Assembly: GCF_014279875.1 (NCBI RefSeq) | Contig: NZ_CP047952.1 | Coordinates: forward strand, 1,426,001 to 1,490,000 | Length of the DNA stretch: 64,000 bases | DNA from: Synechococcus sp. MEDNS5 | GTDB lineage: Bacteria; Cyanobacteriota; Cyanobacteriia; PCC-6307; Cyanobiaceae | Direction of reading: 5' to 3' | In this document: piece after piece, positions 21,920 through 54,926 of the stretch | Layout: each line of letters starts with the position of its first letter | How positions within the stretch are numbered: the first letter of the stretch is position 1 | Notes under the pieces: model-generated | Told to the model about the DNA's origin: nothing | What the model saw: only the letters and a program-made list of their open reading frames with translations | Databases searched by the model: none | Translations under genes and position numbers: made by a program

Positions 21920-23133
<1,214 letters not shown>

Positions 23134-23163
23134 GGTCTGCCTCGCCGTCTGAAAATGATGGAA

Positions 23164-23187
23164 GCCCGCCTGATGGCGGGCTTTTTT
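23164..23187 (+). terminator. Rho-independent terminator of petH
   Basis: GCCCGCC-TGAT-GGCGGGC forms a perfect 7-bp GC hairpin followed directly by six T, about 30 bases after the petH stop. A strong intrinsic terminator separating petH from zwf. Confidence 0.9.
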
Positions 23188-30704: not shown

Positions 30705-31207
30705 CCGAACGCCTGGGACAGGACGTGGGCCAGATGCAGGGGCGAGCCGACATACACCAAGCCTGGAAGAGCGATGGCTGGGCCGAGCAAGCTTCCAACC
30801 AACACCTCGAGCCTGGAGTGGCCTAAGCGTTCTTTCAGGGGTTTGTCAGGGGATGGATCCCAGAGATTGCTGGGCAGAGCATTCACTCTCTCCGCGGTGA
30901 ACCCCGCCGCCCGCCGCACGCCACTGGCGTCGTACATCACAACAAAGGCCACCGTGGAAGCCAAAGCGAAAGCGGGGGAGTCAAATCCATCGAGCCAACC
31001 CACGGCAGCGGCTGTACCGGTCACCAGTGCCGAATGGCTTGATGGCATTCCACCGGTTTCGATCAACACCTGCGGGCGCCAGCGGCGCTGGGTGACCAAC
31101 TCGATGAACAGCTTGGACAGCTGAGCCAGCCCGCAGGCAGCGAGCCCCCAGGCCAGGGAGGCGTTGTCCAGAAGCTGAAGCGGCGCGCTCAACGAGGCAA
31201 TCAGCAT
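30701..31207 (-). CDS. Divergent PAP2 (DUF212) family membrane protein
   Basis: Integral membrane protein related to PAP2 phosphatases (DUF212), about 168 residues. ETGGMPSSHSALVTG carries the conserved SSHS histidine, and LGHSRLEVLVGSLLG the second conserved histidine. Plant and cyanobacterial homologues are widespread, with function not settled. ATG 31207 lies just after the crtE stop; a TTG at 31213 overlaps it. With crtE upstream and the helicase downstream it forms a tight minus-strand run. Confidence 0.83.
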   Translation of the reverse strand: MLIASLSAPLQLLDNASLAWGLAACGLAQLSKLFIELVTQRRWRPQVLIETGGMPSSHSALVTGTAAAVGWLDGFDSPAFALASTVAFVVMYDASGVRRAAGFTAERVNALPSNLWDPSPDKPLKERLGHSRLEVLVGSLLGPAIALPGLVYVGSPLHLAHVLSQAFG

Positions 31208-31209
31208 GG

Positions 31210-32148
31210 TCAACGGTCCCGGCTCGCGACGTAGTCAGCGAGAGCCAGAAGCGGCTGAGCCTTGGATTTCCAAGGTTCGAGGGCAGACTTGGCCTGGGCC
31301 ACTAACTCAAGTGCGCGAGACCGCGACGGTTCGAGACCAAGAAGTTTCGGATAGGTGGTTTTATCGGCGATGAGATCCTTACCCGCTGTTTTACCGAGCA
31401 CTTCACTGCTGGCCGTGACATCCAGAATGTCGTCCACGATCTGGAAGGCCAGGCCGATTCCATTGGCATACGTCCGCATGGCATCGACCTGATTGGCATC
31501 GGCACCGCCGATCAAGGCACCGGTCACGACACAGGCCCTGAGCAGAGCTGCGGTCTTGTGGAGATGGATGTATTCCAGTGTTTCCAGGTCAACCTCGCGA
31601 CCCTCACTTTCCAAATCCACCACCTGGCCACCCACCAGCCCCGGTGCTCCAGACACCAGGGAAAGCTCAGCCACCACCTTCAGCAACCGTTCAGCCGGAA
31701 GCCCTGCACTGCGCACGGCCACCATTTCGAAGGCCCGGCTGAGCAGAGCGTCGCCAGCGAGAATGGCCATGGCATCGCCGTAGACCTTGTGGTTGGTGGG
31801 GCGACCACGGCGCAAATCATCGTTATCCATCGCCGGCAGATCGTCATGGATCAGCGACATGGTGTGGATCATCTCCAGGGCCACTGCCGTCGGCATCGCC
31901 AGAGAGGCATCACCGCCGACCAGCTCACAGGCTGCAAGGCAGAGAATCGGTCTGAGCCGCTTGCCTCCAGCCAGGAGCGAATAGCGCATCGACTCGCGAA
32001 GAGACTCCGGTCGCTCAGGACCTAAAGCCGCATCCAGGGACTGCTCGACAATGTCGCGGGTCTTGGCCAGATAGGCACCGAAGTCAAAACCTGCCTGATC
32101 CTCACCCGACGGCGTGACACCTTCAGGGCTTCTCGCCGTGGCGGTCAT
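31210..32148 (-). CDS. crtE: Geranylgeranyl diphosphate synthase
   Basis: Polyprenyl synthetase that builds geranylgeranyl diphosphate from IPP and shorter allylic diphosphates, feeding carotenoid, chlorophyll phytol and quinone synthesis. The first Asp-rich motif is in [20 protein letters not shown] and the second in [26 protein letters not shown] is the substrate-binding segment. About 312 residues. ATG 32148 is used; ATG 32157 three codons upstream is equally possible. folD lies 54 bp upstream on the same strand. Confidence 0.94.
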
Positions 32149-32201
32149 GAAGAACATGATGCTGGCCGGATTCTGTCAGGCCGCAGGTCCCATGAGCGCG
32201 A

Positions 32202-33083
32202 TCACGGCACTAGGTCGTCAAGATCATGATCGAGCTGATGGCGTCGGCTCCAGGCCAGCACTGTGTTCACCAGAAGCATGGTGACGGTCATCGGACCGAC
32301 GCCGCCCGGCACGGGGGAAAGAGCTGCAACCAAGGGTTCCAGCTCGGCAGCGTTGACATCTCCGCACAATCCACCCTCTGGTCTGCGATGAATGCCCACA
32401 TCCACAACAACGGCACCGGGGGCCACATGCTCAGCCCCGATCATTTCCGGACGTCCCGCTGCGACCACAAGAATGTCGGCCTGACGGGTTAGAGCAGGGA
32501 GATCGCGGGTGCGGGAGTGCGCCACGGTGACTGTGGCGTTGGCTGCCTGAAGCATCAGGGCCATCGGCTGGCCCACAAGGATGCTGCGTCCCACCACAAC
32601 AGCCCGTTTGCCTGAGGGATCAATGCCCTGACTGCGCAACATGGCCATCACGCCTGCGGGCGTACAACTGCGGGGCCCTGGCTCACCTTTCAACAGCCGG
32701 CCAAGGTTGAGTGTGTGCAGACCATCAGCATCCTTATCAGGATCGATCGCTGCCAGTAGAGGGGTTTCATCAAGGCCTTCCGGCAGGGGCAGCTGCAGCA
32801 AAATTCCATCCACCCGCGCATCGGCGTTGAGCGCCTGGATAGCCTTCAGAAGGGTCTGCGGTTGCGACGAAGCAGGCAGGTGGGCCCCGAAGCTTTCCAC
32901 TCCCACCCTGGCGCAGGCTTTCTCCTTGTTGGCCACGTACACCGCACTGGCGGGATCATCACCCACCCGCAGAACCGCAAGACCCGGCGGGCGGCCGGCC
33001 TGAGCACAACCATTGCGGACCTGCTGTGCCAGACGTTGTTCCAGCTCCTTGGCCAGAGCTTTTCCATCCAATCTGAGGGCCAT
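32202..33083 (-). CDS. folD: Bifunctional methylenetetrahydrofolate dehydrogenase/cyclohydrolase
   Basis: FolD interconverts methylene-, methenyl- and formyl-tetrahydrofolate with NADP+. Visible motifs: [18 protein letters not shown] with the catalytic Lys, [27 protein letters not shown] and the NADP loop [17 protein letters not shown]. 293 residues from the ATG at 33083; the frame extends five codons further. Upstream of crtE; divergent from the HD phosphohydrolase gene. Confidence 0.96.
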
Positions 33084-33157
33084 CGCCGACTGATGCACGT
33101 GAAACCAGCATGCCGCTCCGGCAGAGCTAGCGTTTCATTCGAAAGTATCCACCAATC

Positions 33158-35260
33158 TTGCGTTCGCATCCCCTAGCAAGGTTCTGGAGGTCCTGGCTCA
33201 GGAGTGAATCTCCTCGCCGCCCTGTGCTGCGCTGGAATCGCCTGCAACGCAGTGTTCTCCTGGCGCTTTGCCTGCTGGTGGCCCTGATCTCGAGTTGGCC
33301 ATGGCTGGTGGAGCCAGACATTCGACCAGGTCTGGCAGCGCCGTTTGACGCGGTGGCACCGAAAGATGCACGGGTGGTCGACAGCGAAGCGCTGAAGCAA
33401 CGACGATCGAGCCTGGTGCCGAGCACGCTGGTTCAGGTGATCGACAACCAGCAGGATCAGCAGCTGCGCATGCGTCTCGAGCGCTATCTGGGGGAGCTGG
33501 AACGGGTCGCCAGCAGCGATGATGCCGAACGGATCGGTCCAGTGAACCTCAGCACCGAAGAACAGGGCTGGCTTGAGGAACGTGTACCTGAAGAACGCCT
33601 GAACTGGGATATGGGTCTGCGCCGGGCGCTGGAACGCATGCTCAGCCAGGGATTGGTCAACAACCTGGCCGAAGAACAGCTGCGTCAGGCCACATCCCTG
33701 CAGCTGGAGGAACTCGGAGCTGCCGACGCGCCAGCGCGAACCCTTGGCTCCAAGCTGCTCACCACCACCTTGCAGGGGGCCAGCAATCTCAAAACCGATC
33801 CGCAACGCAGCCAAAGGCTGATCGAGAAGCTGATCACCCAGCAAGGCATCCCAGTGATCGAGGTCAGCCAAGGTGACCTGATCACACAGAAGGGCGAACC
33901 GATCAGTTCCCAGGCTTACGACGTTCTCGATTTCTTTGGCCTGGTGAACCGCAGACCCAAACTGGGAATCTGGCTGGTCCGGTTTACAGAATCCCTCGCC
34001 GCCTGCGGGATTCTCCTGCTCGTGATGCGCCGCGAACGCCCCTGCCTCGAAGCGCCCCATGGACTGCTGGCCCTGGGGTTGCTGCTGATCTCCCAGGCCT
34101 GCAAGGTTTGGTTCGGCGCGGCCGTGAGCCCACTGGCGGTGATCGTGCCGCCAACGTTGCTGCTGGCCCAGGGCCTTGGAACCAGCAGCGCCCTGGCGTG
34201 GATGGCCGTTGCCAGCCTGCTCTGGCCCACACCGGTGCCGGGCCTTGGAGAGGGGCGCCTGCTGATCGCTGCGGCAACAGCCACCGTGGCCGCCCTTCAG
34301 GCGGGCAGGCTCAGAAGTCGTGCCCAGCTTTTGCAACTGGCGGTGCTCCTGCCTCTGGGAGCGCTGGTCCTGGAGCTGCTTCTCCTCAACAGGACTGCAG
34401 GATCCCTTGTGGAACAGGACTGGACCCGACTGCTTCCCAACTCGGGAGATCTGGCATCCGAAGCCTTGTTGCTGGGGCTGCTGATGATGCTGGCAATCCT
34501 GGTCATTCCCCTGCTCGAAAGTTCTTTTGGTCTGCTGACCCGGGCAAGGCTGATGGAGCTGGCCGACCAGGAACGCCCCCTTCTGCGCCGGCTCTCCTCA
34601 GAAGCTCCAGGCACGTTCGAGCACACCCTGATGATCTGCAGCTTGGCCGAGGAGGGCGCGCGCGCGATCGGTGCCGATGTTGATCTGATCCGCACCGGAT
34701 CGCTGTATCACGACGTTGGCAAGCTGCATGCGCCGAATTGGTTCATCGAGAACCAGACCACAGACCACAACCCCCACACTGAACTCAATGATCCGGTCGC
34801 CAGCGCGGGCGTTTTGCAAGCCCATGTTGATGAAGGCCTGAAATTGGCCAGACGCCACCGACTGCCCAGACCGATCGCTGACTTCATTCCCGAGCATCAG
34901 GGAACCTTGCGGATGGGGTATTTCCTGCACCAGGCACGGCTGAAGGATCCCAAGATTTCAGAGAAGCGGTTTCGTTATCACGGCCCAACTCCCCGCTCCA
35001 AGGAGACGGGAATCATGATGGTGGCTGATGGTTGCGAGGCCGCCCTGCGCTCCTTGCCACCCGACACGAGCGATGCGGAAGCCCGAGCCACGGTGAAACG
35101 CATCGTGGAAGCACGGCTCAGCGATGGTCAGCTGCGTCAAAGCGGCCTCAGTCGCGCAGAGCTCGAGCTTGTGATGCGGGCGTTCGTGAAGGTTTGGCGC
35201 CGCATGCGCCATCGCCGCATTCCCTACCCGATCCCAGCCAAGCGTCGATTCACGGCTTAA
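33158..35260 (+). CDS. 7TM HD-domain phosphohydrolase, PgpH-like
   Basis: Membrane phosphodiesterase of the PgpH type, 700 residues. An N-terminal anchor (about 28-47) is followed by an extracytoplasmic 7TMR-HDED-like region (about 50-270), seven hydrophobic segments (about 270-455) and a cytoplasmic HD domain with FEHTLMICSLAEEGARA (His489) and LYHDVGKLHAPNWF (His518-Asp519). PgpH enzymes hydrolyse cyclic di-AMP, so a role in ion or osmotic signalling at night is likely by family. TTG start at 33158. The end touches the convergent RluA-type gene. Confidence 0.9.
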   Translation: MRSHPLARFWRSWLRSESPRRPVLRWNRLQRSVLLALCLLVALISSWPWLVEPDIRPGLAAPFDAVAPKDARVVDSEALKQRRSSLVPSTLVQVIDNQQDQQLRMRLERYLGELERVASSDDAERIGPVNLSTEEQGWLEERVPEERLNWDMGLRRALERMLSQGLVNNLAEEQLRQATSLQLEELGAADAPARTLGSKLLTTTLQGASNLKTDPQRSQRLIEKLITQQGIPVIEVSQGDLITQKGEPISSQAYDVLDFFGLVNRRPKLGIWLVRFTESLAACGILLLVMRRERPCLEAPHGLLALGLLLISQACKVWFGAAVSPLAVIVPPTLLLAQGLGTSSALAWMAVASLLWPTPVPGLGEGRLLIAAATATVAALQAGRLRSRAQLLQLAVLLPLGALVLELLLLNRTAGSLVEQDWTRLLPNSGDLASEALLLGLLMMLAILVIPLLESSFGLLTRARLMELADQERPLLRRLSSEAPGTFEHTLMICSLAEEGARAIGADVDLIRTGSLYHDVGKLHAPNWFIENQTTDHNPHTELNDPVASAGVLQAHVDEGLKLARRHRLPRPIADFIPEHQGTLRMGYFLHQARLKDPKISEKRFRYHGPTPRSKETGIMMVADGCEAALRSLPPDTSDAEARATVKRIVEARLSDGQLRQSGLSRAELELVMRAFVKVWRRMRHRRIPYPIPAKRRFTA

Positions 35261-35958
35261 CGGTGGGTCCAGGCTGGCCACGGAGCACGGACGCGCACCG
35301 TATGGCCGGGATGATCAGGATCGGGAAAACCCAAGGCCATCGCCCTGAGCCGCAGCCCCTCAGCTGCACATCCAGGGTTGTAGATCGGGTCACCGATGAT
35401 CGGATGGTGCAGGGCCGCCAGATGGGCGCGCAGTTGATGGGATCGGCCGGTTCTTGGGCAGAGCCAGAGACGCGTGCTGTTCTCCACCAATTGCAAACGA
35501 CGCCACAGCGTTATGCATGCCTTCCCATCGGGATGAACGCCATAGGTGGGCGGTTGACGCTTCAGACGAGCCAGAGGGAGATCAATCAGTCCGCTGACAG
35601 TCCCCATCTGTCCCTGAACATCAGCGATGTACAGCTTTCTGACCCTTCGCGCTGCGAACAAAGACCCCAACAATCGGTGTGTGTCTGGATCCTTCGCCAG
35701 AAGCACGAGTCCCGAGGTGTCGCGATCGAGGCGATGCACCAGGCGTAGGTCTGGGCACGACAGCTGAAGGCGGCTGATCAGCGAATCCTGCTTGTGAGCA
35801 CCCAGACCGGGTTGGCAGAGGAGTCCTGACGGTTTGTCCACCACCATCCAACGTGGATGATCGAGAACGAGGGGCAGCCCAGCCAGCAGGCGGTCTGCCA
35901 AGAGCCCTGGCCTACAAACGGCCACCGCGCCGATGGGCTGGACGGCACCAGTAGACAA
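35257..35958 (-). CDS. RluA-family pseudouridine synthase
   Basis: Pseudouridine synthase without an S4 domain. The catalytic motif RLVHRLDRDTSGLVLLAK contains the nucleophile Asp; WMVVDKPSGLLCQPG and RTGRSHQLRAHLAAL are typical of RluA/RluC-type enzymes. The RNA target cannot be told. The frame starts at 35958, overlapping the end of the upstream membrane-protein gene by 47 bp; a start closer to LDHPRWMVVDKPSG is possible. Confidence 0.87.
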   Translation of the reverse strand: MSTGAVQPIGAVAVCRPGLLADRLLAGLPLVLDHPRWMVVDKPSGLLCQPGLGAHKQDSLISRLQLSCPDLRLVHRLDRDTSGLVLLAKDPDTHRLLGSLFAARRVRKLYIADVQGQMGTVSGLIDLPLARLKRQPPTYGVHPDGKACITLWRRLQLVENSTRLWLCPRTGRSHQLRAHLAALHHPIIGDPIYNPGCAAEGLRLRAMALGFPDPDHPGHTVRVRAPWPAWTHR

Positions 35959-36313
35959 GAGCCAGCACGTTCAAGAGCCCAAGCGACACTGAAGCAAACC
36001 CGAGGGTGCGGGCCTCGGGGCCGAGCACCAGGCGCACGATCCCGTAAGGCAAGGCACCTCCAAGGGCCATGGACAGGGCCACGATGGTGAGAATCACTCC
36101 CCAGCGCCGCTGCGCCAGCAGTCCGGCCGCCGCCACGATGCCCACGATTGCCGCAGGCCAGGCCAGCGAAAAGGCCAGGGTGATGTTGGTGATTTTGAGG
36201 CCTGTGGATTGATCAGCCTGAAAGGCCCCCCAAGCGATCACGGGTAAGGCCAGGAGATTGGCCAGCAACCCAATCCAGGTCATCAACCAATACCCGCGCA
36301 GCCTGGGCCCCAT
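35912..36313 (-). CDS. Hypothetical four-helix membrane protein
   Basis: About 133 residues with four predicted membrane segments (around YWLMTWIGLLANLLALPVIA, ITLAFSLAWPAAIVGIVAAA, WGVILTIVALSMALGGALPY and TLGFASVSLGLLNVLALVYW) and an Arg-rich tail. No family recognised. Start taken at ATG 36313; another ATG lies five codons upstream. Ends inside the RluA-type gene frame, suggesting coupling. Confidence 0.65.
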   Translation of the reverse strand: MGPRLRGYWLMTWIGLLANLLALPVIAWGAFQADQSTGLKITNITLAFSLAWPAAIVGIVAAAGLLAQRRWGVILTIVALSMALGGALPYGIVRLVLGPEARTLGFASVSLGLLNVLALVYWCRPAHRRGGRL

Positions 36314-36334
36314 GGAGTCAGCGTGCAAACTTGC

Positions 36335-36658
36335 TCACCGTAAGGGGCCGTGGCCGCCGCTCTCTTCATCGTCGGCGTGCAACACGGATTCCAGGGTGCT
36401 AAGCAGCATCGCAACGGCTTCATCACGCTCCATGGCGCCCTCGGCAACCCGACTGATCCAGTCGTGGCAGAGCGCTTCGATCTGATCGAACAAGGGGCCT
36501 GTGGCCTGCAAAACATCACTCACGCGCTGGGACGCGTCTTGATCAATCTCAAGACGGTCCAGCACCCGATAAAAGCGACCGTCGTTACCGAGATAGGTGA
36601 GATGACCCGCGTCATCCAGTTTTGGTGCGGTGATGGGAGTGACTGATGGCTCGTCCAT
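36335..36658 (-). CDS. Conserved hypothetical protein
   Basis: 107-residue acidic, soluble protein with no recognised domain. It contains LTYLGNDGRFYRVLDRLEID and a helical C-terminal half ending in an acidic tail. The open frame continues to 36916 but runs through the upstream gene; ATG 36658 lies 7 bases after that gene's stop and is preferred. It probably forms an operon with the exported HExxH protein upstream. Confidence 0.65.
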   Translation of the reverse strand: MDEPSVTPITAPKLDDAGHLTYLGNDGRFYRVLDRLEIDQDASQRVSDVLQATGPLFDQIEALCHDWISRVAEGAMERDEAVAMLLSTLESVLHADDEESGGHGPLR

Positions 36659-36665
36659 GGTTGCT

Positions 36666-37214
36666 TCAGCCTCTGGGAGTTTCAGGGGAGATCGCTGGGG
36701 GAGCCGATACGGAGCCCCGAGGCAGACGATCGGCGCAGAAACTGCGAAACAGTGCTTCAACCTCCCTGGGAGGCAGACCCTGCACCAAACGGGCTTCAAT
36801 CTCTTCTCGCTGCTGCGACTGGTGATAAAGACGGAGTTCCTGAAGCGTTGCTCTGGATCGGGCTTCAATGGCCTCCAGGGCATCGCCGATCTGATGGTCG
36901 GCGAGAAGGGCACCACCTTGGCAGTGCTGCATCACGTGCGCGGATTCATGGGCGAGCACCACCCAGATCTGCTTGGGATCGTTCTCAAGATTGTTGGCAC
37001 AAAGAAGGAGAGCGTTGCGCTGCGAGTGAAACGCGCCCAGAAGCGAGGGTGGGCAATCTTTGGCGACCATCGTGTCGGTGCCGGCACGCCGGATCAGAGA
37101 GGCATAGCGGCCGATGCGATCCCAGCTCTCCGCGCGCACTGGCCCGGAGGCCAGAGATGCAAGAGAGGTCATCGCCAGCGCGACCGCAACGGAACGACCA
37201 AACGCAAATCCCAT
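36666..37214 (-). CDS. Exported protein with HExxH zinc-protease-like motif
   Basis: 182-residue exported protein. A signal peptide (about residues 1-28, ending GPVRA) precedes a soluble domain with IWVVLAHESAHVMQHC, a canonical HExxH (His89-Glu90, His93) zinc site. Four cysteines (KDCPPS, LLLCANN, QHCQGG, SFCADR) suggest two disulfides in the periplasm. The family is not known to me; it could be a small metallopeptidase. ATG at 37214; the next gene downstream starts 7 bases after its stop. Confidence 0.75.
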   Translation of the reverse strand: MGFAFGRSVAVALAMTSLASLASGPVRAESWDRIGRYASLIRRAGTDTMVAKDCPPSLLGAFHSQRNALLLCANNLENDPKQIWVVLAHESAHVMQHCQGGALLADHQIGDALEAIEARSRATLQELRLYHQSQQREEIEARLVQGLPPREVEALFRSFCADRLPRGSVSAPPAISPETPRG

Positions 37215-37281
37215 CCATCAGTCCCACTCCTGTTCTCATTAGAGACAGCAGAGACACATGCAGGCCGAAGGTTCGGTTCTT

Positions 37282-37581
37282 CTACCGATTCAGCCGCTGA
37301 ACACTGGACACCTTGTCCCGGAAGGACTGCTCGCGATCAATGCGCGTATTGACGCGCAACGTGGCATGGATCCTGGGAACCCCGTTCTGGTGCAAGCGCT
37401 CATGGCAAGCCTTAACGCAAGCAAACACGGCATCCCATTCACCCTCAATCGCCGTCCCATCAGGTCCCAGCTGATGCTCGAGCCCCGAAGCCTCAATCAC
37501 CTCCTGGCAGACCGCCACGTAGGGCGCAAGGGATACCCCCACACCGAGCGGCACGAGGCAGAGATCAACGCTCACGCGCAT
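37282..37581 (-). CDS. MTH1187/DUF77-family thiamine-binding protein
   Basis: 99-residue protein of the MTH1187/YqgV (DUF77) family, which forms compact ferredoxin-like tetramers; some members bind thiamine. Features: SVDLCLVPLGVGVSLAPYVA, the HQLGPDGTAIEGEWDAVF motif and a C-terminal RVNTRIDREQSFRDKV strand-helix. Physiological role unclear. ATG at 37581, minus strand. The candidate sRNA described below lies divergently just upstream. Confidence 0.85.
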   Translation of the reverse strand: MRVSVDLCLVPLGVGVSLAPYVAVCQEVIEASGLEHQLGPDGTAIEGEWDAVFACVKACHERLHQNGVPRIHATLRVNTRIDREQSFRDKVSSVQRLNR

Positions 37582-37619
37582 CGGTGGCTCCAGTCATGCC
37601 CTGTCATGGTTAATCAGGA

Positions 37620-37730
37620 TCCCAGACAGATGCAAGCCCATGCAACAGGCCAGACTTGGCCCAGCGGGGGCGGCACGGCCGGCGAGAACCCCAGCGCTGC
37701 GGAGCTCCTCAGGGAGCTCCGGTTTTTTTT
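37620..37730 (+). ncRNA. Candidate plus-strand small RNA
   Basis: Plus-strand stretch ending in a strong intrinsic terminator with no plus-strand gene upstream. It holds a GGCCA-GACT-TGGCC hairpin (37648-37661), a G-rich/C-rich pairing (GGGG near 37665 with CCCC near 37690) and the terminator hairpin at 37700-37721. The 5' end is not defined; no clear promoter is seen. Its last 20 or so bases are antisense to the 3' end of the next minus-strand gene. Confidence 0.35.
37700..37730 (+). terminator. Strong plus-strand intrinsic terminator
   Basis: CGGAGCTCC-TCAG-GGAGCTCCG gives a 9-bp stem with a 4-base loop, followed by G and eight consecutive T on the plus strand. Flanking genes are on the minus strand, and the minus-strand side has no T-run, so the signal serves plus-strand transcription. 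Confidence 0.8.
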
Positions 37731-37975
37731 GAGCGATCACCATGCCCGAGAAGACAGGCACTGGGGTAGCCAAGAGTGCGCCACTCGCCGCAGCTTGTCT
37801 GAACTTCAAGCCCGATCCCCTGCTCAGAAGCTGAAGGGGAGCGTCCCTGCCTTTCACACCAACGACTGGCAGCCGCCTCCGCAGCAGCGATCGATTCATA
37901 CGGCGCATCCAGCACTGGATGGGGGCTGCCGTCCAGTGATACCAATCGATACAGGGGGCGTCTGGAGTCGGGCAC
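37709..37975 (-). CDS. Hypothetical protein
   Basis: About 88 residues; family not recognised. The body begins LYRLVSLDGSPHPVLDAPYE, followed by a helix and three cysteines (RWCERQG, QTSCGEW, SACLLG). GTG at 37975 starts just ahead of the apparent domain; ATGs at 38029 and 38083 would lengthen it. The stop codon lies in the loop of a plus-strand terminator, so the last codons are antisense to it. Confidence 0.5.
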   Translation of the reverse strand: MPDSRRPLYRLVSLDGSPHPVLDAPYESIAAAEAAASRWCERQGRSPSASEQGIGLEVQTSCGEWRTLGYPSACLLGHGDRSKKTGAP

Positions 37976-38060
37976 TATTCCACTTTCGCAACTGTCACCA
38001 GTGTTCCATGCTTCCGAAGGGTGCGCCATCCCGGAAGCCGACTCCATCCACCCCAACGCC

Positions 38061-38522
38061 ATGACGAGCCACGTTCTCACCAACGCCTACGAGGCCCTGC
38101 TGAGCTGCGCCCCAGCCCCCCTCTTCCAGAAGGCCAGAGACCTTTATCTCAAGAAATACGCCCTGGATGGCCGCAAGAGCGAAAGCCCCTTACGCCTGTT
38201 TGTGGCCAGCGAAAGTCTCAACGAAACCATCAACCCCGACCCAGAGGCACCACCCCATGGACGCATTGCCCGCCTCGAAGCCAGAACCGAGGAGCTGGCC
38301 TTGGTCCACTGGCAGAACCCTGAACCTGCCGATCACAACGCTGTGGAGCGCTACCTGCGCGAAACCTGGGATCTCACCGACATTTCACTCCACTCCTGCG
38401 AGGACCCATGGTTTCGAGATGGTGGCCACCAGCAGCGCCTGACACTCCCCGCCCCCCTGAACTGGATGCGGGAAGCCCGTTACCAGGACGTCCAAAAAAC
38501 TCTGCAGGATGAAAACCCATGA
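38061..38522 (+). CDS. Conserved hypothetical protein
   Basis: 153-residue soluble protein, no family recognised. It begins SHVLTNAYEALLSCAPAPLF, has LYLKKYALDGRKSESPLRLF and a Trp-rich middle (LALVHWQNPEP, LRETWDLTDISLHSC), and ends in charged residues. ATG 38061 is used; the frame is open from 38001, but that part is not convincing. Divergent from the 88-residue hypothetical gene. Confidence 0.65.
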   Translation: MTSHVLTNAYEALLSCAPAPLFQKARDLYLKKYALDGRKSESPLRLFVASESLNETINPDPEAPPHGRIARLEARTEELALVHWQNPEPADHNAVERYLRETWDLTDISLHSCEDPWFRDGGHQQRLTLPAPLNWMREARYQDVQKTLQDENP

Positions 38523-38590
38523 AAAGCTGAAAGCCAACGCACGGACGCGCGAGCCTGGCTAAGCCGGAATTAAGTCTCAGTGGATCAAAG

Positions 38591-38797
38591 ATGAGAACTT
38601 CCCTCCCGGAGCGCTACGTCCTGCGCCACAGGGGCAGCGGACAGTATCTGCGCGTTAATGACCAAAGCCAGCAGATCGAGGCGATCGAAAGCCCCGAGTC
38701 CGCTTGGAATTTCCACAGCCATGAAGGGGCCATCACCCATGCCCTCTGGATCGGCGAAGTGCATGGTCAGACCCCTGATGTGGTGAAGATGCGCTGA
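38591..38797 (+). CDS. Small hypothetical protein
   Basis: 68-residue protein beginning MRTSLPERYVLRHRGSG. It is rich in His, Arg and Glu and contains ESAWNFHSHEGAITHALWIG. No known family. ATG start, 69 bp after the previous plus-strand gene; it converges with the ferredoxin 13 bp away. Accepted as coding because the product is ordinary in composition and fits the gap; moderate doubt. Confidence 0.5.
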   Translation: MRTSLPERYVLRHRGSGQYLRVNDQSQQIEAIESPESAWNFHSHEGAITHALWIGEVHGQTPDVVKMR

Positions 38798-38810
38798 GCA
38801 ATCAGCGCGA

Positions 38811-39092
38811 TCAGAGCTCGTCTTCGACCTCAGGCTTGATGGTGCAATCAGCCATGGGATAGCTGACGCAGAGCAGGGCGTAACCATTCCCCATCTGCTC
38901 ATCATCCAGGAAGCTTTGATCAGACTGATCAACGCTTCCGCTCAACACCTTGCCGGCGCAGGTGCTGCAGGCACCGGCTCGGCAGGAATAAGGAAGGTCG
39001 ACACCCTGCTCTTCTGCGGCATCAAGGATGTATTGATCGTCTGCGCAGGAAAAACTCTTTCCGCCTTCAAGAGTGATGGTGAAAGATGCCAT
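38811..39092 (-). CDS. petF: [2Fe-2S] plant-type ferredoxin
   Basis: 93-residue ferredoxin, an electron carrier on the acceptor side of photosystem I. The cluster ligands are Cys37, Cys42 and Cys45 in [13 protein letters not shown] and Cys75 in [10 protein letters not shown]. Acidic overall with a typical C-terminal EVEDEL. An extra cysteine (Cys16) is unusual but not a ligand. It may be the main PetF or one of several paralogues; petH, its partner, lies elsewhere in the window. ATG start. Confidence 0.93.
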
Positions 39093-39427
39093 GGGATTTC
39101 AAGCAATCAATTCTTTGGTAGTGATCTATGGCGCAGATATCAGCCCTGCGTGCGTGATCCCTGACTGATGCAGGTTCAACGCTGGCCGACCAGGTCTTCC
39201 CACGTCAAGAACTGACGACTGTCCACCTGATCTGTGGATGAAGTTCGTTGATCGCGGGCGGGGACCAGGGCCTCGTCGCAACACTCAACTGCTGTCTCTG
39301 CCCGGTGACCTCTCGACCATTCGTTCCAGAACGACATCTCAAGCTTTATTCCTGAGACCAGCATTGAGTTTCTGCTTCGAAATATCCGTGTCCAGGGCTA
39401 CCTGAGAAGGTGCACAGGGGCACAAAA
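39093..39427. other. Intergenic stretch without a supported gene
   Basis: 335 bases between the ferredoxin start and the Nif11 gene stop. It must hold the ferredoxin promoter (minus strand), but I see no clear -35/-10 pair. A 62-codon minus-strand frame (39176-39364) has atypical composition and no family resemblance, and I do not count it as a gene. No strong hairpin or repeat seen. Confidence 0.6.
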
Positions 39428-39673
39428 TCAACCCTGAATGAAATGGCGCAATCGCCTTGAGTCTTCAGCCATCCTGCGCTGCAACTCAGCCGACGGGGCG
39501 TCAGCTTCTTCCCTGGCCTGGGCTGAGAAAACATCCTCATCAGTGATATGGAATCCATGCCCACGAGCGAGCTCGATCAGAGCCTCAACCGACAGGGGCT
39601 CGGCCAAGCTGGCCGCCAGAGCCGCGTCGGTTTCACGCAGGCGTAGGAAGGCATCAAGATCTTGGAGCGACAT
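39428..39673 (-). CDS. Nif11-family (leader-like) small protein
   Basis: 81-residue protein with a Nif11 domain: SLQDLDAFLRLRETDAALAA, then EALIELARGHGFHITDEDVF. In marine picocyanobacteria Nif11-type leaders precede lanthipeptide (prochlorosin) cores. Here there is no Gly-Gly cleavage site and no cysteine, so no core peptide, and no LanM-type synthetase is in the window. It is more likely a stand-alone Nif11 protein of unknown role. ATG start. Confidence 0.82.
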   Translation of the reverse strand: MSLQDLDAFLRLRETDAALAASLAEPLSVEALIELARGHGFHITDEDVFSAQAREEADAPSAELQRRMAEDSRRLRHFIQG

Positions 39674-39745
39674 TCGCTGCTGATGTTGAGGCCCACCATT
39701 CCATCACCGCACGGTGTTAAGACTGCTTCAACCCAGTTCAGATCC

Positions 39746-39880
39746 ATGGCGATCCAACGCCTGACCTCGGTGCTGCTCGGAGCTGCCGGCACGTTTCTGC
39801 CGCCCGTTGAAGGCGACGGAATCAGCGATTCGAACTCCACAGGGTTCGGGTACGGAATTTCCGTTCAAAGCTGCAACTAG
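39746..39880 (+). CDS. Possible small exported peptide
   Basis: A 44-codon frame starting ATG at 39746, with a short hydrophobic segment (LTSVLLGAAGTFLPP) and a Ser/Gly-rich tail ending QSCN. The frame is open further up to 39662. No homologue recalled; it fits the gap between the divergent Nif11 gene and the next gene. Low confidence. Confidence 0.25.
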   Translation: MAIQRLTSVLLGAAGTFLPPVEGDGISDSNSTGFGYGISVQSCN

Positions 39881-39895
39881 AGGCTGCTCAACAAC

Positions 39896-40285
39896 ATGCG
39901 TGAGCGACTCCTGCTCCTGATTCCAGTCACAGGCTTCAGCTGTTTGCTGGTGTTATTCGTTGTGCTCTGGCAAGCCAGCCAACACCAAAACATCCGATTG
40001 CAGGGCCTCACGAATCGCGTGAAAGACCTGGAACAACGCGAAGAAGTGAACAGCCGGCAGCTCTTGGAGCAGCAGCTGGGCGTGTTGAAGACCCGTCAAC
40101 AGAAGCTGCAAACAGACATCCAGAGCCTGCAGAGCTTTCAGAATGAATACGCCAAACGGGAGGCACGCCTGCTGGAGACCCTCAGGCAAGACGCCACCCT
40201 TCCATCCACGCCGGAGGGGATATCGGCCGACGAGTCAGCGATCCCCAATCCCGTCATAACGAATCCATCAGCCCCTAGCCCTTGA
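39896..40285 (+). CDS. Hypothetical membrane-anchored coiled-coil protein
   Basis: 129 residues: an N-terminal membrane segment (LLLLIPVTGFSCLLVLFVVL, about 5-24), then a Gln/Glu/Leu-rich coiled coil (about 33-100) and a Ser/Pro-rich tail. No named family. Such single-pass coiled coils are often envelope scaffolds, but nothing specific is shown. ATG start; the 3' end overlaps the convergent permease by 11 bp. Confidence 0.6.
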   Translation: MRERLLLLIPVTGFSCLLVLFVVLWQASQHQNIRLQGLTNRVKDLEQREEVNSRQLLEQQLGVLKTRQQKLQTDIQSLQSFQNEYAKREARLLETLRQDATLPSTPEGISADESAIPNPVITNPSAPSP

Positions 40286-41135
40286 CCGCATCACCACTGG
40301 CGCTGGGAAGGATAAAGCGCTGAAGCAGCACGAACAGGATCAGAACAGGAAGGATTGACACCACTGACCCTGCCGCGACGATGCGCCAGTCGAGCGAGAA
40401 GCTGCTGGCGAGCTGCTGGAGCCCGAGGGGCAGGGTGAACAACTGGGGATCATCAAGGATCACCAAAGGCCAGAGGAAATCGCTCCAGGTTCCGATGAAC
40501 ACAAACATCGCCAACGTGATCAGGTCGGCCCGGGCCGCTGGAATCATCACGTTCCACCATTCCCCCAGCTTGCTGCAGCCATCGATGCGAGCGGCCTCTT
40601 CCAGTTCCACCGGCACGCCCAGAAAGCTTTGACGCAGAAGGTAGAGACCAAAGGCCGTTGCAGCCTGGGGAATCACAAGAGCCAGAAGGGTGTTTCTCAG
40701 ACCCAGCTGCACCATCAGCAGATACAGCGGAATCATCACCACCTGGAAAGGGATGAGGATGGTGGCGACCACTAGGCCCAGAACCAGTCCCCGTCCTGCA
40801 AATTGCATGCGCGCCAGGGGATAGGCCGCCAGCGAGCAGAACAGAAGATTGGCCACCACAGCCACCAGGCTCACGATGGTGCTGTTCAGAAGGTATTGAC
40901 CGAGAGGGTTGTTCTGGAACAGCCGCACGTAGGCGTCGAGGCTTGGTTGAGCCGGAAGCAACGCCGGGGGGCTGGTGAAGATGTCCTCGGCGGGGCCCTT
41001 CAGCGACGTGCTCACGAGCCACAGCAGCGGCACCAGCACCACCAAAGCCAGCAGGATCAGCAACAGAAGCTGAAGCACCGAGCGCAGCGTGATGCGGTCC
41101 TTCGCCGGGACAGCGCGGGTCTGGTGACGGGCCAT
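40275..41135 (-). CDS. Carbohydrate ABC transporter permease (MalG-type)
   Basis: Inner-membrane permease of a CUT1 sugar ABC transporter, about 286 residues with six membrane segments. The EAA loop that contacts the ATPase reads VELEEAARIDGCSKLGEWW. The best-known cyanobacterial relatives are the glucosylglycerol/sucrose GgtD proteins; the solute here is not known. No binding protein, second permease or ATPase is in the window. ATG 41135, just after the leuA stop (frame opens at 41174 inside leuA), so probably cotranscribed with leuA. Confidence 0.88.
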   Translation of the reverse strand: MARHQTRAVPAKDRITLRSVLQLLLLILLALVVLVPLLWLVSTSLKGPAEDIFTSPPALLPAQPSLDAYVRLFQNNPLGQYLLNSTIVSLVAVVANLLFCSLAAYPLARMQFAGRGLVLGLVVATILIPFQVVMIPLYLLMVQLGLRNTLLALVIPQAATAFGLYLLRQSFLGVPVELEEAARIDGCSKLGEWWNVMIPAARADLITLAMFVFIGTWSDFLWPLVILDDPQLFTLPLGLQQLASSFSLDWRIVAAGSVVSILPVLILFVLLQRFILPSASGDAVKG

Positions 41136-41139
41136 CGGA

Positions 41140-42762
41140 TCAGAGGGTCGGGCTGGCATCCAAAGGAGTTGCATCCCGCTGGGGATGCAGGGCCGGGTTC
41201 AAGGCCCCGGCCACCAGGCGATTCAGGGCATTCACAAAGGCCTGAGCGGCGGCCACCACCACATCGGTGTCGGCAGCATGGCCGGAAAAGAGCTGACCGT
41301 CACGTCGCAACCGGATCGTGACCTCACCCATGGCATCGATGCCCTCGGTGACGGACTTCACCGAAAACTCAACCAGTTCGTTGGGTTCCCCGGCCAATGC
41401 ATTGAGGGCACGGCACACGGCATCCACAGGGCCAGTACCAATCGCCGCCTCACTCTGTTCTTGGCCCTCTTCATCCAGCAGGGTGACGGTGGCCGTGGGC
41501 TGCAGGTTGCTGCCGCAGCTCACCTGCACAGACTTGAGCTGATAGCGGGCATCGGGTTGCTGAACCTGCTCGCTCACGATCGCTTCGAGATCGCGATCGG
41601 TGATGTCGCGCTTGCGATCCGCCAACTCCTTGAACCGGGCGAACGCGTCGTCTAGGTCTTCACGGCTGAGGTTGTAGCCAAGCTCCTCGAGACGGGCACG
41701 CACCGCACTGCGGCCACTCAGCTTCCCGAGGGAGATCCGGTTGTCCGTGAGACCAACGGTGCGAGCATCAACGATCTCGTAGGTGAGGCGGTTTTTGAGA
41801 ACGCCATCCTGGTGAATGCCCGATTCATGGGCAAAGGCATTCGCTCCCACGATTGCCTTATTGGGCTGCACCACCATGCCGGTGAGATTGGAGACCAAGC
41901 GCGACGTCTTCGTGATCTCCTCGGTGCGCACACCCGTCAGGGGGGTGGGTGAGTCGTCCTCTCGGCCAAAGAAGGGATTGAAGTAGCGGCGGCGCACATG
42001 CAAGGCCATCACCAGCTCTTCAAGGGCCGCGTTACCGGCCCTTTCGCCGATGCCGTTGACCGTGCACTCCAGCTGGCGGGCCCCGTTTTTCACGGCCTCC
42101 AGGAAGTTGGCCACAGCCAAACCGAGATCGTTGTGGCCATGCACCGACAGCACTGCATCGCCGATGTTGGGCACGTGCTGGTCGATACCGGCAATCAAGG
42201 CGCCGAACTCGGCCGGTGTGGTGTAGCCCACTGTGTCGGGAATATTGATTGTGCTGGCGCCGGCAGCAATCGCCGCTTCGATCACCTCGTAGAGGAATTC
42301 GGGGTCACTGCGGCCGGCGTCTTCACAGGAGAACTCCACATCGTCAACGAGAGAGCGGGCGTAAGACACCATCTCGGGCACGATCGCCAACACTTCCTGA
42401 CGACTCTTGCGCAGTTTGTGTTCAAGGTGAATGTCGCTTGTGGCGATGAAGGTGTGAATGCGGCGGCGAGGGGCGGGGGCCACCGCATCAGCGCAGGCCT
42501 TGATGTCCCCACGGGAGGCGCGGGCCAGACCGCAAATGATCGGTCCTTGCTCTCCACCCACCTGCTGGGCAATGCGCTGAACGGCAGCGAAATCGCCAGG
42601 GCTGGCGAAGGGGAAGCCCGCTTCGATCACATCAACGCCAAGCCGCGCCAGCTGCTGGGCAATGGCCAGCTTTTCCTCAAGGTTGAGGCTGGCTCCTGGG
42701 GACTGTTCACCATCCCGAAGGGTGGTGTCGAAGATCAGAACGCGGCCTGGATCGTGGGCCAT
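41140..42762 (-). CDS. leuA: 2-isopropylmalate synthase
   Basis: First committed enzyme of leucine synthesis, condensing acetyl-CoA with 2-oxoisovalerate. 540 residues. The catalytic barrel shows [19 protein letters not shown] (metal-binding Asp, catalytic Arg) and [20 protein letters not shown] (HxH metal ligands), with AGNAALEEL after it; the C-terminal LeuA dimer regulatory domain, site of leucine feedback, follows from about residue 400. ATG start at 42762; divergent from the GH57 gene. Confidence 0.96.
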
Positions 42763-42886
42763 GGCAACAGCCTCGACGCGATTTAGTCGGAATGACTATG
42801 AGTTAGCCCACTTTAGGGGAGCGGACCTTGGAAAAACCAGGGAAATGGCCCTGATGCCGGGTACATTCGTCCCACTGCACAGGGGG

Positions 42887-44458
42887 ATGGTGGCCAACGG
42901 AGCTCTCGCGCTCGTTCTCCACGCCCACCTTCCTTACGTGCGCGGAGCTGCACCACAGTCCCTGGAAGAGGATTGGTTCTTTCAGGCACTGATCGAGTGC
43001 TACCTGCCGCTTCTGGACACCCTGGAGGCAGCGGCGGCCGATCCTTTGCAAGAGGCTCGGCTCACCATGGGCCTGTCGCCCACCCTGCTCTCGCTCCTGG
43101 CCGACCGCACCTTGCAATCCCGGTTTCCCGCCTGGGTTGAGGCCAGGCTGACGCTGCTGAAGGAAGCACCCGAGGATCGACAGGAAGCTGCTGAAGACCT
43201 CGGCCTGTTGTTTCAGAAACACCTGAGGGCATGGAAAGCCTGCGAAGGCGACCTCATCGGCCGCTTCGCGGCTCTGCAGAGCAAGGGCGTTCTCGACCTG
43301 CTCACCTGCGGAGCCACCCATGGCTATCTGCCCCTGCTGCGGGAACACCCAGAAACCGTGCGCGCCCAGCTGCGCACGGCCGTACGGGAACACCACCGCC
43401 TGATCGGCGAGCGACCGCTGGGGATCTGGCTGCCGGAATGCGCTTATTACGAGGGCCTGGACCGCTGGATGCGGGATGCCGGCTTGCGCTACGCGGTGCT
43501 TGATGGCCATGGCCTGCTCCACGCACAGCCACGTCCGCGCTACGGGGTCTATGCCCCGATCGTGAGCCGGCAAGGCGTGGCCTTCTTCGGGCGCGACAGC
43601 GATGCCACCCTGCCGGTGTGGTCAGCAAGGGACGGCTACCCCGGGGATCCCCTGTACCGGGAATTCCACCGTGATCTGGGTTGGGATCTGCCCGCAGAAC
43701 AGATCGAGGCCCATGGCCTACCCACGGGACGCCCTCTGGGGCTCAAGCTGCATCGAGTGAGCGATCCGAGCGGGGGGCTTGATGGCAAATGCCCTTATCA
43801 ACCGGAGAAAGCACGCCAACGAACGCAGGAGCATGCCAAGCACTTTTTGCAGGGTCGGCGGGAACAACTTGAGCGGTTGCAGGCGGGCATGGCCACCGAG
43901 CCACTGCTGGTGGCACCGTTTGATGCCGAACTATTTGGCCACTGGTGGTTTGAGGGTCCGCACTTTCTGCGGGAGCTCTTCCGTCAAGGGCCTGCAGAAG
44001 GCGTGCGCTTCACTAGCCTGCGCGGAGTCTTGGCCAGCACCCCAAACCTGCAGCTGTGTGCACCGTGCCCATCCAGCTGGGGAAGGGGAGGATTTCACGA
44101 TTACTGGCTCAATGAAACCAATGCCTGGATCATCCCTGAATGGAGCCGAGCCGGACGGGCCATGGTGGAGCGCTGCAGCCGCGGCGTGGGCAGCGAAACC
44201 GATCTGAGGCTGCTCCATCAGGCGGGCCGAGAGCTCCTATTGGCCCAGTCATCCGATTGGAGCTTCATTCTGCGGGCCGGCACCACCACCGAACTCGCCA
44301 AAGACAGGATCGAGCGCCACCTCGAACGCTTCTGGCGGCTAATGTCAGCTATCGACAGGCATGAAGACCTGCCTGAGCATTGGCTGGAGGACGTAGAAGC
44401 CGAGGATGCTGTTTTCCCCTTAATTCAGCCAGCCGACTGGGTCAGCGTGGCCAGCTGA
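42887..44458 (+). CDS. GH57 1,4-alpha-glucan branching enzyme
   Basis: Glycoside hydrolase family 57 protein, about 523 residues, matching the branching-enzyme subgroup, which adds alpha-1,6 branches to glycogen. It starts ALALVLHAHLPYVRG; the putative nucleophile Glu is in LGIWLPECAYYEGLDRW and the acid/base Asp in LLVAPFDAELFGHWWFEG. The C-terminal DUF1957 region is present. The start is uncertain: ATG 42887 puts the family N-terminus first; ATG 42845 and 42854 are also open. It converges on the autotransporter with 11 bp between stops. Confidence 0.87.
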   Translation: MVANGALALVLHAHLPYVRGAAPQSLEEDWFFQALIECYLPLLDTLEAAAADPLQEARLTMGLSPTLLSLLADRTLQSRFPAWVEARLTLLKEAPEDRQEAAEDLGLLFQKHLRAWKACEGDLIGRFAALQSKGVLDLLTCGATHGYLPLLREHPETVRAQLRTAVREHHRLIGERPLGIWLPECAYYEGLDRWMRDAGLRYAVLDGHGLLHAQPRPRYGVYAPIVSRQGVAFFGRDSDATLPVWSARDGYPGDPLYREFHRDLGWDLPAEQIEAHGLPTGRPLGLKLHRVSDPSGGLDGKCPYQPEKARQRTQEHAKHFLQGRREQLERLQAGMATEPLLVAPFDAELFGHWWFEGPHFLRELFRQGPAEGVRFTSLRGVLASTPNLQLCAPCPSSWGRGGFHDYWLNETNAWIIPEWSRAGRAMVERCSRGVGSETDLRLLHQAGRELLLAQSSDWSFILRAGTTTELAKDRIERHLERFWRLMSAIDRHEDLPEHWLEDVEAEDAVFPLIQPADWVSVAS

Positions 44459-44469
44459 AAAGCAACCAA

Positions 44470-47400
44470 TCAGAACTGCCACTCAAAGCCACCAGAGGCT
44501 CGGTAGTCAGTCCCTCTCGCACCTCCCCAGGCTTCGATGCCACCACGGAGATACACCTTGTAGGAGCTGCTGTTGACGTTGGCGATGGTGTAGTCCAGAC
44601 CGCCTTCAACCAACACTCCATTGGTGTCCTTATTGGCAGACTTGATAGTCGCCTCCTTGTTGGTGAAGCGATACCCCAAGGTTTGATCACTGAGGTTGCC
44701 GCTCCAGTCACCCAGCCAACCCACACGCAGTGAAGGCACGAGTTGAGAGGTCTCACCTGTGTTGATCGGATAGGAGAACTTCATCGCCAGGTCGGTTTGC
44801 ACGTACGTGGTCGAGCGCTCCTTGTAGGTGAGGTTCAGCTGACCAGCACCGCTCTCAGTGAACTGGTGCTCGTTGTTGAAGCTCCAGGTGGTAGTGAACT
44901 GGGGTTCGAGAACGAACTTGCCTGCCTCAAAGGGAGCACCGATCCGGAAGGCCAAGCCATAGCTAGTGGCACTCTTGTCACCTGAAGCAGTGTCATCACC
45001 CAACTGATCTGTGATTTCAATGATCTCCCGCTTCTGGTTGCCACTGAATCCAGTGGCACTGAACAGACCCTGGATATAGAAATTGTCGGACCAGTAGTCA
45101 GCCTTCACGCCTCCACCCCAACCATCGGAGTTCCAAGAACCACCACCGGCCAGCGCGTTCTGCTGAATCAGGTTGATGTTGCCGTAGTTGGCAAAGGCAC
45201 CAATCTGGAAGTTGTCAGTGACTGAGACGTCAACGCCCAGCACACCGCCACCAGCGTTGACGTAATAGGGGTTGTAGAAGTTGTCGTTGTAGCTGTCATT
45301 GTCATCACCACCAAAGCCACGGAACCAAGCCCTCACCCCGTCACGGCGTGCATATTGAGCAGTCAGTGAGGTGTCTTCGATGAAACCAGAGGCTTCCAAT
45401 GACTCAATCGTGGTTTCGCCAGTGACCTCTGCCTGGGCAATGGCTTGATCCAGAGCCTGTTGCGCCTGCTGATCAGACAGCTCACCACTCTTGCTCCAAA
45501 GACCACGCACTGGAGGTGCTGATTCTTCCATCACCTCCTCCTGCTCCACCACGGTCTCTTGAACAACCACTGGGTCAAACTGACGGAGGGGGAGGCGTTC
45601 AAACACAACATCCGTCAGCAGGTTGTTGTAGGTCGCAATCCCACGACCAGCGCCGTCAATATTGCGTGGAGCTAAACCTGAAACAATTAACTTGGCAAGG
45701 GTGCCATAGCTGATGATAGGAAGATCAATGTTTTCTAGTACATCGTCTAAGATTTCATCCACAGTTTCCGAACCAGCGCCTCCATCTTGAATAATTTCAA
45801 CCAAGTCCTGCTCGGCTTGATCCAGGCCAAGGTCAGGTTCACTTGGGTCTAGATCATCCAAACCGTCAATAATTTCAGAAGCTGGCTTGACATCAACTTG
45901 AACATTCAGACTGCCTTCGATCAAGTAGACCTCAAAATTGGCAGTTCCTTGAATTCCATTTGCATCACCAAGGCCCGAAAATTCACCAACCTCTCCGTCA
46001 TAATTCAAAGTTGCATTAGCAGCCAACTCGTTCATTTCCGATTGACTGGTCTCGGGCACATCAAGAATGAGATAGGTGCCTTCCGGATCTGTTGTCGAGC
46101 CTGCCTGGATGACCAACTGACCAGGATCCTTACCTTCAGTTGGGGTATAGACAAAAGAGCGAGCCTTCAAAGGCGCACTATCTTTATCTGAAATATCGGC
46201 AAAGATGACACCACCAGTCATCACAACATCTTGAAAAATACTTGTGCCGGAATCCGTCAGCCGCATGATTCCGCCTTCGATTGTCATCGTTCCGATACCT
46301 GCAGCAGCATAATCACCGTCATAATCCCAAGAGCCAGACCTTTGACTAGCCCGCTCAAAATTACGAATTTTATTCACCTTGAATTCATTAATCACATCAC
46401 CTGTAGAGCCAAACACAACCTCATCAACATCGCCCGATCTGCTGCCACCATCAATGTAGCCAGCACCAGAAATATTGGAATTTGTAATCACCACATCATT
46501 ACCATCACCCATCAATATACTTCCGCTTTGAAGCAGCTTGGAGCCCACATTTGAGCCCGAAGGCAACGCAATCGCACCATAGTTCACAAGGCGATCATCA
46601 CCACTACCAAAGTCGAGATCTCCATAAGCACTCAAGGATCCCGTCGACTCAACACTCAAGCTGTCGTTACCAGGCCCAAACTCAACTTTTCCCCAAATCT
46701 CAGCAGGCTTGGCTGAACGCCCATTACCACGAACGACAATTTGATCATCACCCTGACTGCCAGTGATCGCGATATAAGAAAAGCCAGCTCCAGCTGCACT
46801 ATTTTCCCAACGGCAACCGTATCCACCAGGATTCTTTGTCGTACCACATGATGCACTACCAAAACCTAATGAATTACGATAGGCCACCACAGCAGGGCCA
46901 ACAAGAGTCACCTTATTTAAATCACTTACATCACCAGAATCAGATTCCCTCTTCGAACCAAGAGCAATCCAATCATCGACAACACCCGAACCAATCCATT
47001 CACCATCAGCTTGCAGCGTCAATTCATCACTGCCTTTCCCCAAAGTAATCGGACCACGCAGACCGCCACTAGAAACAATAGTGTCATCACCGCCTGCCAT
47101 ATTGACCGAGCCACGAACATATCCTCGGTTAACCAAAAGATCATTCCCACCCTCAAATTTAAGATTTACAGTGTAGTTTCGGGAAAGATCAGAATCTTCG
47201 GGCAACACATCATTCACTTCACTAGAAGCATCAGCACAAGTATTTTGACCCTTAAATCCATTATAACCACCTGCATCAGCTCCACTGGTCAAACAACCCA
47301 AATAGCCTTCGTTTAAAACAGTATCATCGCCATTCCCCAACTTAATGTCTAATGCGTTTCCCGTAGAAGCATCACCCGGACCGACGACAACGCCCTTGTT

Positions 47401-54853: not shown

Positions 54854-54859
54854 TACTCT
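54854..54859 (+). promoter_or_regulatory. Likely -10 element of Yfr1
   Basis: TACTCT sits 6-7 bases before the first hairpin of Yfr1, in the position expected for a -10 box. Upstream, TGACGC near 54831 is only a weak -35. Confidence 0.5.
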
Positions 54860-54863
54860 CAGA

Positions 54864-54926
54864 GTGTGCGGGCGTATGCCCACACACTCCTCACACCCCC
54901 CGGCCCGACGCGTTCGGGCTTTCTGT
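54864..54926 (+). ncRNA. yfr1: Yfr1 small RNA
   Basis: Matches the cyanobacterial sRNA Yfr1: a 5' hairpin (GTGTG..GGGC-GTAT-GCCC..CACAC), the ultraconserved single-stranded motif ACTCCTCACAC at 54886-54896 and a 3' terminator hairpin (GCCCGA-CGCGT-TCGGGC) followed by a T-rich tract. Its position between guaB and trxA is the conserved marine-picocyanobacterial one. Yfr1 base-pairs with porin-type mRNAs and represses their translation in Prochlorococcus. Exact ends are approximate. Confidence 0.92.

Follow-up and report, generated by a model that had tools for sequence, protein, structure and literature searches.

What transcript could a strong plus-strand terminator end when both genes beside it are read from the minus strand? 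Positions 37700-37730 of the window, as we call the whole 64 kb stretch of DNA that was analysed, raise this question. The plus-strand stem reads CGGAGCTCC / GGAGCTCCG and forms nine base pairs, seven of them G-C, around a loop of 4 nt; a single G follows the stem, and then a run of eight T residues. A preliminary description of the locus had reported this stem and T run and counted them among the strongest intrinsic terminators of the window, and it was accurate on both points. It had also placed all neighbouring genes on the minus strand. This is right for the two nearest genes, the DUF77 gene and a hypothetical gene of 88 residues, but only for these, since the next gene, present at 28 of 30 loci, lies on the plus strand. 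The features discussed below are collected in Table 1.

Table 1. Features of the locus in window coordinates
Feature	Position	Strand	Remarks
-10-like box CAGACT	37651..37656	+	Sequence conservation; putative function
Candidate sRNA, about 68 nt	37663..37730	+	Fold, conservation, distribution; predicted ends
Hairpin H1	37663..37698	+	Core 37668-37693 nearly invariant; outer AGCG/CGCT stem variable
Hairpin H2, terminator stem	37700..37721	+	9 bp, loop 37709-37712
T8 tract	37723..37730	+	7-8 T in five genomes, none in G022; Lys-Lys codons in the reverse complement
Probable DUF77 promoter, TTGCAT (37635-37630), 18 nt, AACCAT (37611-37606)	37606..37635	-	Putative role
DUF77 / Thiamine_BP protein (PF01910, E 2.2e-31)	37282..37581	-	Divergent from the element
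88-residue hypothetical gene	37709..37975	-	Homologue in 28 of 30 DUF77 loci
Conserved gene, no Pfam match	38061..38522	+	Homologue in 28 of 30 loci

The terminator and its neighbours

A loose scan of both strands between 30000 and 45000 returned 15 terminator-like sites, where chance alone would be expected to give 11.2, and the site at 37700-37730 ranked at the top of them. Under a strict rule (a stem of at least 7 pairs, at least 5 of them G-C, and at least 6 T in 8), two plus-strand sites and one minus-strand site qualify in the whole 64 kb; 40 first-order Markov simulations gave 0.3 per strand on average and never more than 2. Our site is the stronger of the only two on the plus strand. 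The other, at 23163-23182, begins 30 bases past the end of a reading frame at 23133. It lies between this frame of 392 aa, which we take to resemble ferredoxin-NADP reductase, and a frame of 507 aa, which presumably resembles glucose-6-phosphate dehydrogenase. Upstream of the terminator at 37700-37730, no recognisable gene end was found on the same strand.

As a sequence feature, the terminator is real. The window has what defines an intrinsic terminator, a G-C-rich hairpin with a U tract immediately behind it, and a run of seven or eight T stands behind H2 in five of the six genomes that carry the element, albeit with a weakened H2 stem in one of them (G029). According to one report, cyanobacteria have no known Rho, and canonical intrinsic terminators were found in only 22% of the transcription units of S. 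elongatus PCC 7942 (PMC13289151). The occurrence of a canonical terminator at this locus can therefore be taken as a mild sign of purpose.

The T run also belongs to a protein. The 88-residue gene ends in ...SKKTGAP-stop, and this coding tail is the T run and the right arm of H2, read from the opposite strand. Its stop codon (37709-37711) is located inside the H2 loop in all six carriers, and the H2 left arm (37700-37708) lies outside the coding sequence. An RNA ending at 37730 would overlap the tail by 22 nt including the stop codon, and in this sense the antisense arrangement proposed in the preliminary description is borne out. By sequence, the T run can be explained as lysine codons. The body of the 88-residue protein is conserved, and its C-terminal tail varies by group (GHG..KKTG, ESGSGVGAP, ES and others); among the 28 genomes read, the GHG..KKTG form is found only in the five that have the T run. 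All five use AAA AAA for the two lysines. Eight genes of the window use AAG 40 times and AAA 12 times, and the retention of the rarer codon favours selection on the T run, albeit only weakly because the five genomes share ancestry. Just one other T run of seven or more exists in the window, a T8 at 19581-19588. It covers lysine codons (FFEKKPRY) of a minus-strand reading frame, and the strict scan found no hairpin there. Such a T run, placed over lysine codons without a hairpin, is a fair warning against the reading of T runs as terminators.

The DUF77 gene was present in all 31 genomes of the genus, and in the locus analysis, which covered 30 of these genomes, it was kept together with the 88-residue gene at 28 of 30 loci. 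In the six carriers, 125-127 nt separate the stop codon of the 88-residue gene from the start of DUF77; the others of the 28 have 123 nt (G016 and G024), 68-89 nt (seven genomes) or 4-27 nt (thirteen genomes). The gap in G016 and G024 is of like length but without the hairpin sequence. On the plus strand, the motifs ATGGTT and GCAAG are invariant in 11 aligned genomes regardless of whether the element is present or absent, and the DUF77 gene, which indeed diverges from the terminator as had been described, appears to have its own promoter.

On the other side, the 88-residue gene has a divergent neighbour, the plus-strand gene at 38061-38522, which gave no Pfam match. We considered an attenuator of this gene and deemed it unlikely, judging from position alone, because the entire 88-residue gene intervenes in antisense orientation. 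Positions 39428-39673 encode a small protein with a Nif11 domain (PF07862, E 1.3e-11); small proteins of the Nif11 type are leaders of peptide natural products.

Conservation, fold and distribution of the element

Along the plus strand, the -10-like box, H1, H2 and the T tract follow each other in the order of an sRNA gene, and their spacing is nearly constant: in the alignment, the box and the H1 core are 11 nt apart in five genomes and 9 nt apart in G029. The box reads NARACT over the six genomes, with the A at position 2 and the T at position 6 invariant. It lacks the first T of TANNNT, there is no -35 consensus, and a sigma-70 scan of 30000-45000 found no promoter-like site. H1 in the window reads AGCG-GGGG-CGGC-ACG-GCCG-gcgagaa-CCCC-ag-CGCT. 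Its bulge of 7 nt is conserved, being GCGAGAA in the window and GCGAGRA over six genomes, and its apical loop is variable. The preliminary description had noticed further hairpins ahead of the terminator; H1 with its conserved core is one of these, but another, a GGCC...GGCC hairpin at 37648-37661, is intact in just two of the six aligned genomes, the window's own and that of WH7803.

Six of the 31 genomes of the genus carry the element at this locus: the source genome of the window (G000; 2.44 Mb, one contig), the laboratory strain Synechococcus WH7803 (G009, at about 1454230-1454318 of its contig), G025, G008, the MAG G029, and G022. Its presence was found concordantly by DNA search, by pattern search and with a covariance model. 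The covariance model, applied to the 31 genus genomes and, with stricter filters, to 197 relatives, again singled out these six, each with a single strong match (74-108 bits). The next-best matches scored 26-27 bits, none of the other 197 relatives exceeded 28 bits, and weak matches occurred in 19 more genus genomes (E up to 1) and 26 more relatives (E up to 0.1). When second copies were sought in the element's own genome, a single match was obtained at E 0.001 or better. The exact H1 core pattern was matched four times in a set of 300 family genomes, which left out G022 and G029, and all four matches were at this locus. Allowing up to two mismatches gave 18 places in 16 of the 300 genomes (4 exact and 14 with two mismatches), the latter being close to chance level, as a reversed control pattern gives 10. 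The preliminary description had made its reading depend on the conservation of the hairpins in related genomes, and such conservation was found in these six.

In a tree of flanking sequences from 15 genomes, rooted only at the midpoint, a single clade unites all five carriers of the T run (100/100), and the sister group of G022 consists of seven element-free genomes (100/100). The presence of the element amounts to two changes on this tree and three on a tree of 30 based on DUF77 only, which implies either a transfer or a single gain together with at least one loss.

G022 was compared with the other five carriers. The four-fold sites of both flanking genes are saturated, with 120 of 397 identical, and G022 has diverged so far that any sequence still common to it and the five is informative. 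The H1 core retained 116 of 130 identities, the H2 left arm 42 of 45, the H2 loop 18 of 20, and the A.ACT of the box (37652-37656) 23 of 25. The H2 right arm had 31 of 45, the spacer 37641-37667 around the box 42 of 133, the linker between H1 and H2 9 of 30, and the T run 6 of 45. Over all six genomes, the identity of the H1 core is 0.926 versus 0.499-0.514 at four-fold sites. The H1 core and the H2 left arm lie outside both annotated coding frames, and the varying columns of 37664-37708 are spread evenly over the three codon positions, showing no codon rhythm. This conservation across saturated divergence, outside coding frames and without codon bias, indicates that the non-coding parts are under purifying selection across saturated neutral divergence and that the non-coding part of the element is very probably functional. 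What one would look for in an sRNA gene is found in 37664-37708, namely conserved non-coding sequence together with structure, in a stretch that is not protein-coding.

A small protein encoded on the plus strand was also considered and rejected. A frame of 268 aa (37258-38064, plus strand) spans the element in antisense to both genes. As read from the alignment, it is disrupted by a deletion of 2 nt before H1 in G029 and by a stop after H1 in G022, and the absence of codon rhythm in the varying columns also opposes such a protein.

While the sequence conservation of the element is strong, its structural support is moderate. The given structure is paired in 86.2% of cells over six genomes, a value that 5 of 500 shuffles reached; for H2 the figure is 90.7%, with mismatches interrupting the stem in G029. 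The H1 inner stem and three G-C pairs are invariant in the six genomes, one further H1 pair, G-C in four genomes, is reversed to C-G in G022, and the outer pairs form in one to four of the six. Five of the 22 pairs are doubly changed in at least one genome, a number reached by 26 of 500 shuffles, and the number of pair types was reached by 220 of 500. Six slid controls were all below the true structure on each measure, albeit with the caveat that a structure derived from one of the sequences tends to outscore its slid versions. Covariation support for the structure is thin. Single-sequence folding is unremarkable: G029 has a z of +0.76, the values of the other five genomes lie between -0.95 and -2.30, and the drawn fold of two hairpins is not optimal in G029, nor in G022 for the 68-nt stretch.

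The strand of the element and competing explanations

An independent plus-strand sRNA, as proposed in the preliminary description, is the best-supported reading of these data, given the box, the two hairpins and the terminator in order, and the selection in 6 of 31 genomes. What found no support is a structure specific to that strand, and the T run exists in only five of the six carriers. For the whole element, the plus-strand fold was better in G008 (-32.5 vs -26.1 for minus), the minus-strand fold was better in G029 (-25.6 vs -19.2 for plus) and G022 (-33.3 vs -27.0 for plus), and the two were equal in the remaining three genomes. With one genome in favour of plus, two in favour of minus and three undecided, folding cannot assign the strand. 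H2 alone folds better on plus in G008 and slightly so in G022 and the window, and better on minus in G029 and slightly so in G025. The 68 nt of the window have a z of -1.46 on plus and -1.96 on minus.

H2 and H1 might also be read as an RNA element of the minus strand, either as the 3' end of the 88-residue mRNA, acting as a stabiliser or non-canonical terminator, or as an intercistronic element before DUF77. The stop codon of the 88-residue gene within the H2 loop in six of six genomes would suit this reading, as would the folding of both hairpins on the minus strand, better there for the whole element in G029 and G022, and the missing plus-strand T run of G022. It would also agree with a report that cyanobacteria lack Rho and that most 3' ends of S. 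elongatus are not canonical terminators (PMC13289151). However, no minus-strand T run is found past H2 or H1, and the NARACT box, the T7-T8 of five genomes and the better plus-strand fold of G008 would be left unexplained. We consider a minus-strand element unlikely. Control at the level of DNA appears improbable. Here, a protein would bind the H1 core, approximately 32 bp upstream of the -35 in the DUF77 promoter, leaving H2 and the T run to be explained by coding sequence and chance. The inner stem of H1, CGGC-ANN-GCCG, is a short inverted repeat, the distance from H1 to the promoter is constant within 2 nt, and a DNA site could dispense with the T run, as seen in G022, but neither the conservation of the non-coding H2 left arm (42 of 45) nor the terminator and the asymmetric bulge would be accounted for.

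We regard as equally improbable that the terminator serves only to halt stray plus-strand transcription, begun in the DUF77 promoter region, before this can run through the 88-residue gene in antisense, the resulting short RNA having no function of its own. Rho suppresses antisense transcription in other bacteria, a point for this account, and the terminator is located at the 3' end of the antisense gene. The lack of a known Rho in cyanobacteria (PMC13289151) points in the same direction. Yet a mere stop has no need of a conserved H1 core and bulge, and G022 retains H1 and H2 with the T run gone. Finally, the locus could hold no functional element at all, only a Lys-Lys codon pair behind an accidental palindrome. 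In its favour, both T runs of seven or more in the window cover lysine codons of minus-strand frames. The non-coding H1 core and H2 left arm have, however, stayed conserved in spite of saturated divergence, which largely refutes this explanation; we find it hardly credible.

A candidate small RNA and its place among known ones

On balance, we think that 37663-37730 is probably a plus-strand sRNA gene of about 68 nt that ends in an intrinsic terminator and is divergent from DUF77, even though G022, retaining H1 and H2 but no T run, speaks against this. RNA polymerase would start near 37663, an assumed position, from the -10 box at 37651-37656. The RNA of about 68 nt would fold into the bulged hairpin H1 and the terminator hairpin H2, and transcription would stop in the T tract by intrinsic termination. 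As the working part we envisage H1, in which the unpaired GCGAGAA is conserved and the apical loop varies; it would most likely pair with targets elsewhere or bind a protein, and H2 would end and protect the RNA. Transcription, both ends, the strand and the mode of action are what we infer for this candidate. Its 5' end was set at the start of H1, 6 nt past the box, and its 3' end was taken from the T run. The 6-nt gap follows Yfr1 (RF01116), which is matched elsewhere in the window at 54866-54922 with 71.6 bits: a -10-like TACTCT at 54854-54859 precedes the start of that match by 6 nt, and the same gap was assumed for the candidate.

The pairing of H1 to the leaders of three local genes showed no excess over shuffles, the best result being 23 of 200 in 18 comparisons; this test scored sequence pairing regardless of accessibility, and the G022 leader positions were approximate owing to indels. 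The absence of an excess leaves room for a role in trans. Tentatively, and with more doubt than confidence, we suggest that the two-hairpin core of a clade-restricted sRNA is older than its terminator. The T tract would be confined to the WH7803 group, where it would double as the coding tail of the 88-residue gene, making one stretch both the end of a protein and the end of an RNA; G022 would have kept only the core, which its sister group would have lost. An RNA of this sort might in addition link the 88-residue gene in cis with DUF77, the thiamine-binding gene.

At the gathering score, only Yfr1 (54866) and a tRNA were reached by Rfam in the whole window, and up to E 10 the surroundings of the element returned only four unrelated, non-cyanobacterial families (E 0.31-3.3). 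The candidate is similar to Yfr1 in being a short free-standing picocyanobacterial RNA. Unlike Yfr1, which is reported in all cyanobacterial lineages (PMC2190773), it has no Rfam match and occurs in 6 of 31 genomes of one genus. Another comparison is offered by Yfr103, described in PMC5069720 as a non-coding RNA that is abundant in marine Synechococcus and has homologues in many strains, WH7803 among them. Its paralogues in CC9605 are given there as 290-328 nt, whereas the candidate, with its predicted ends, would have about 68 nt; the two are set apart by this length and not by sequence alignment. In a literature search, we recognised no description of the element, but the WH7803 sRNA catalogue was outside the scope of that search, so we make no claim that the element is unpublished. 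Gierga and others reportedly identified sRNAs of Synechococcus WH7803 by comparative genomics and arrays (in ISME J, 2012), in the same organism group and by the same approach as here, and the element may already be in that catalogue.

The element belongs to a kind already known and does not amount to a new type of system. If it is transcribed, WH7803 would gain one more sRNA gene, and the genus would provide a clear-cut example of the gain and loss of an RNA next to two genes that otherwise stay constant. If the reading is true, it would mean that an intrinsic terminator can arise inside the coding tail of an opposing gene.
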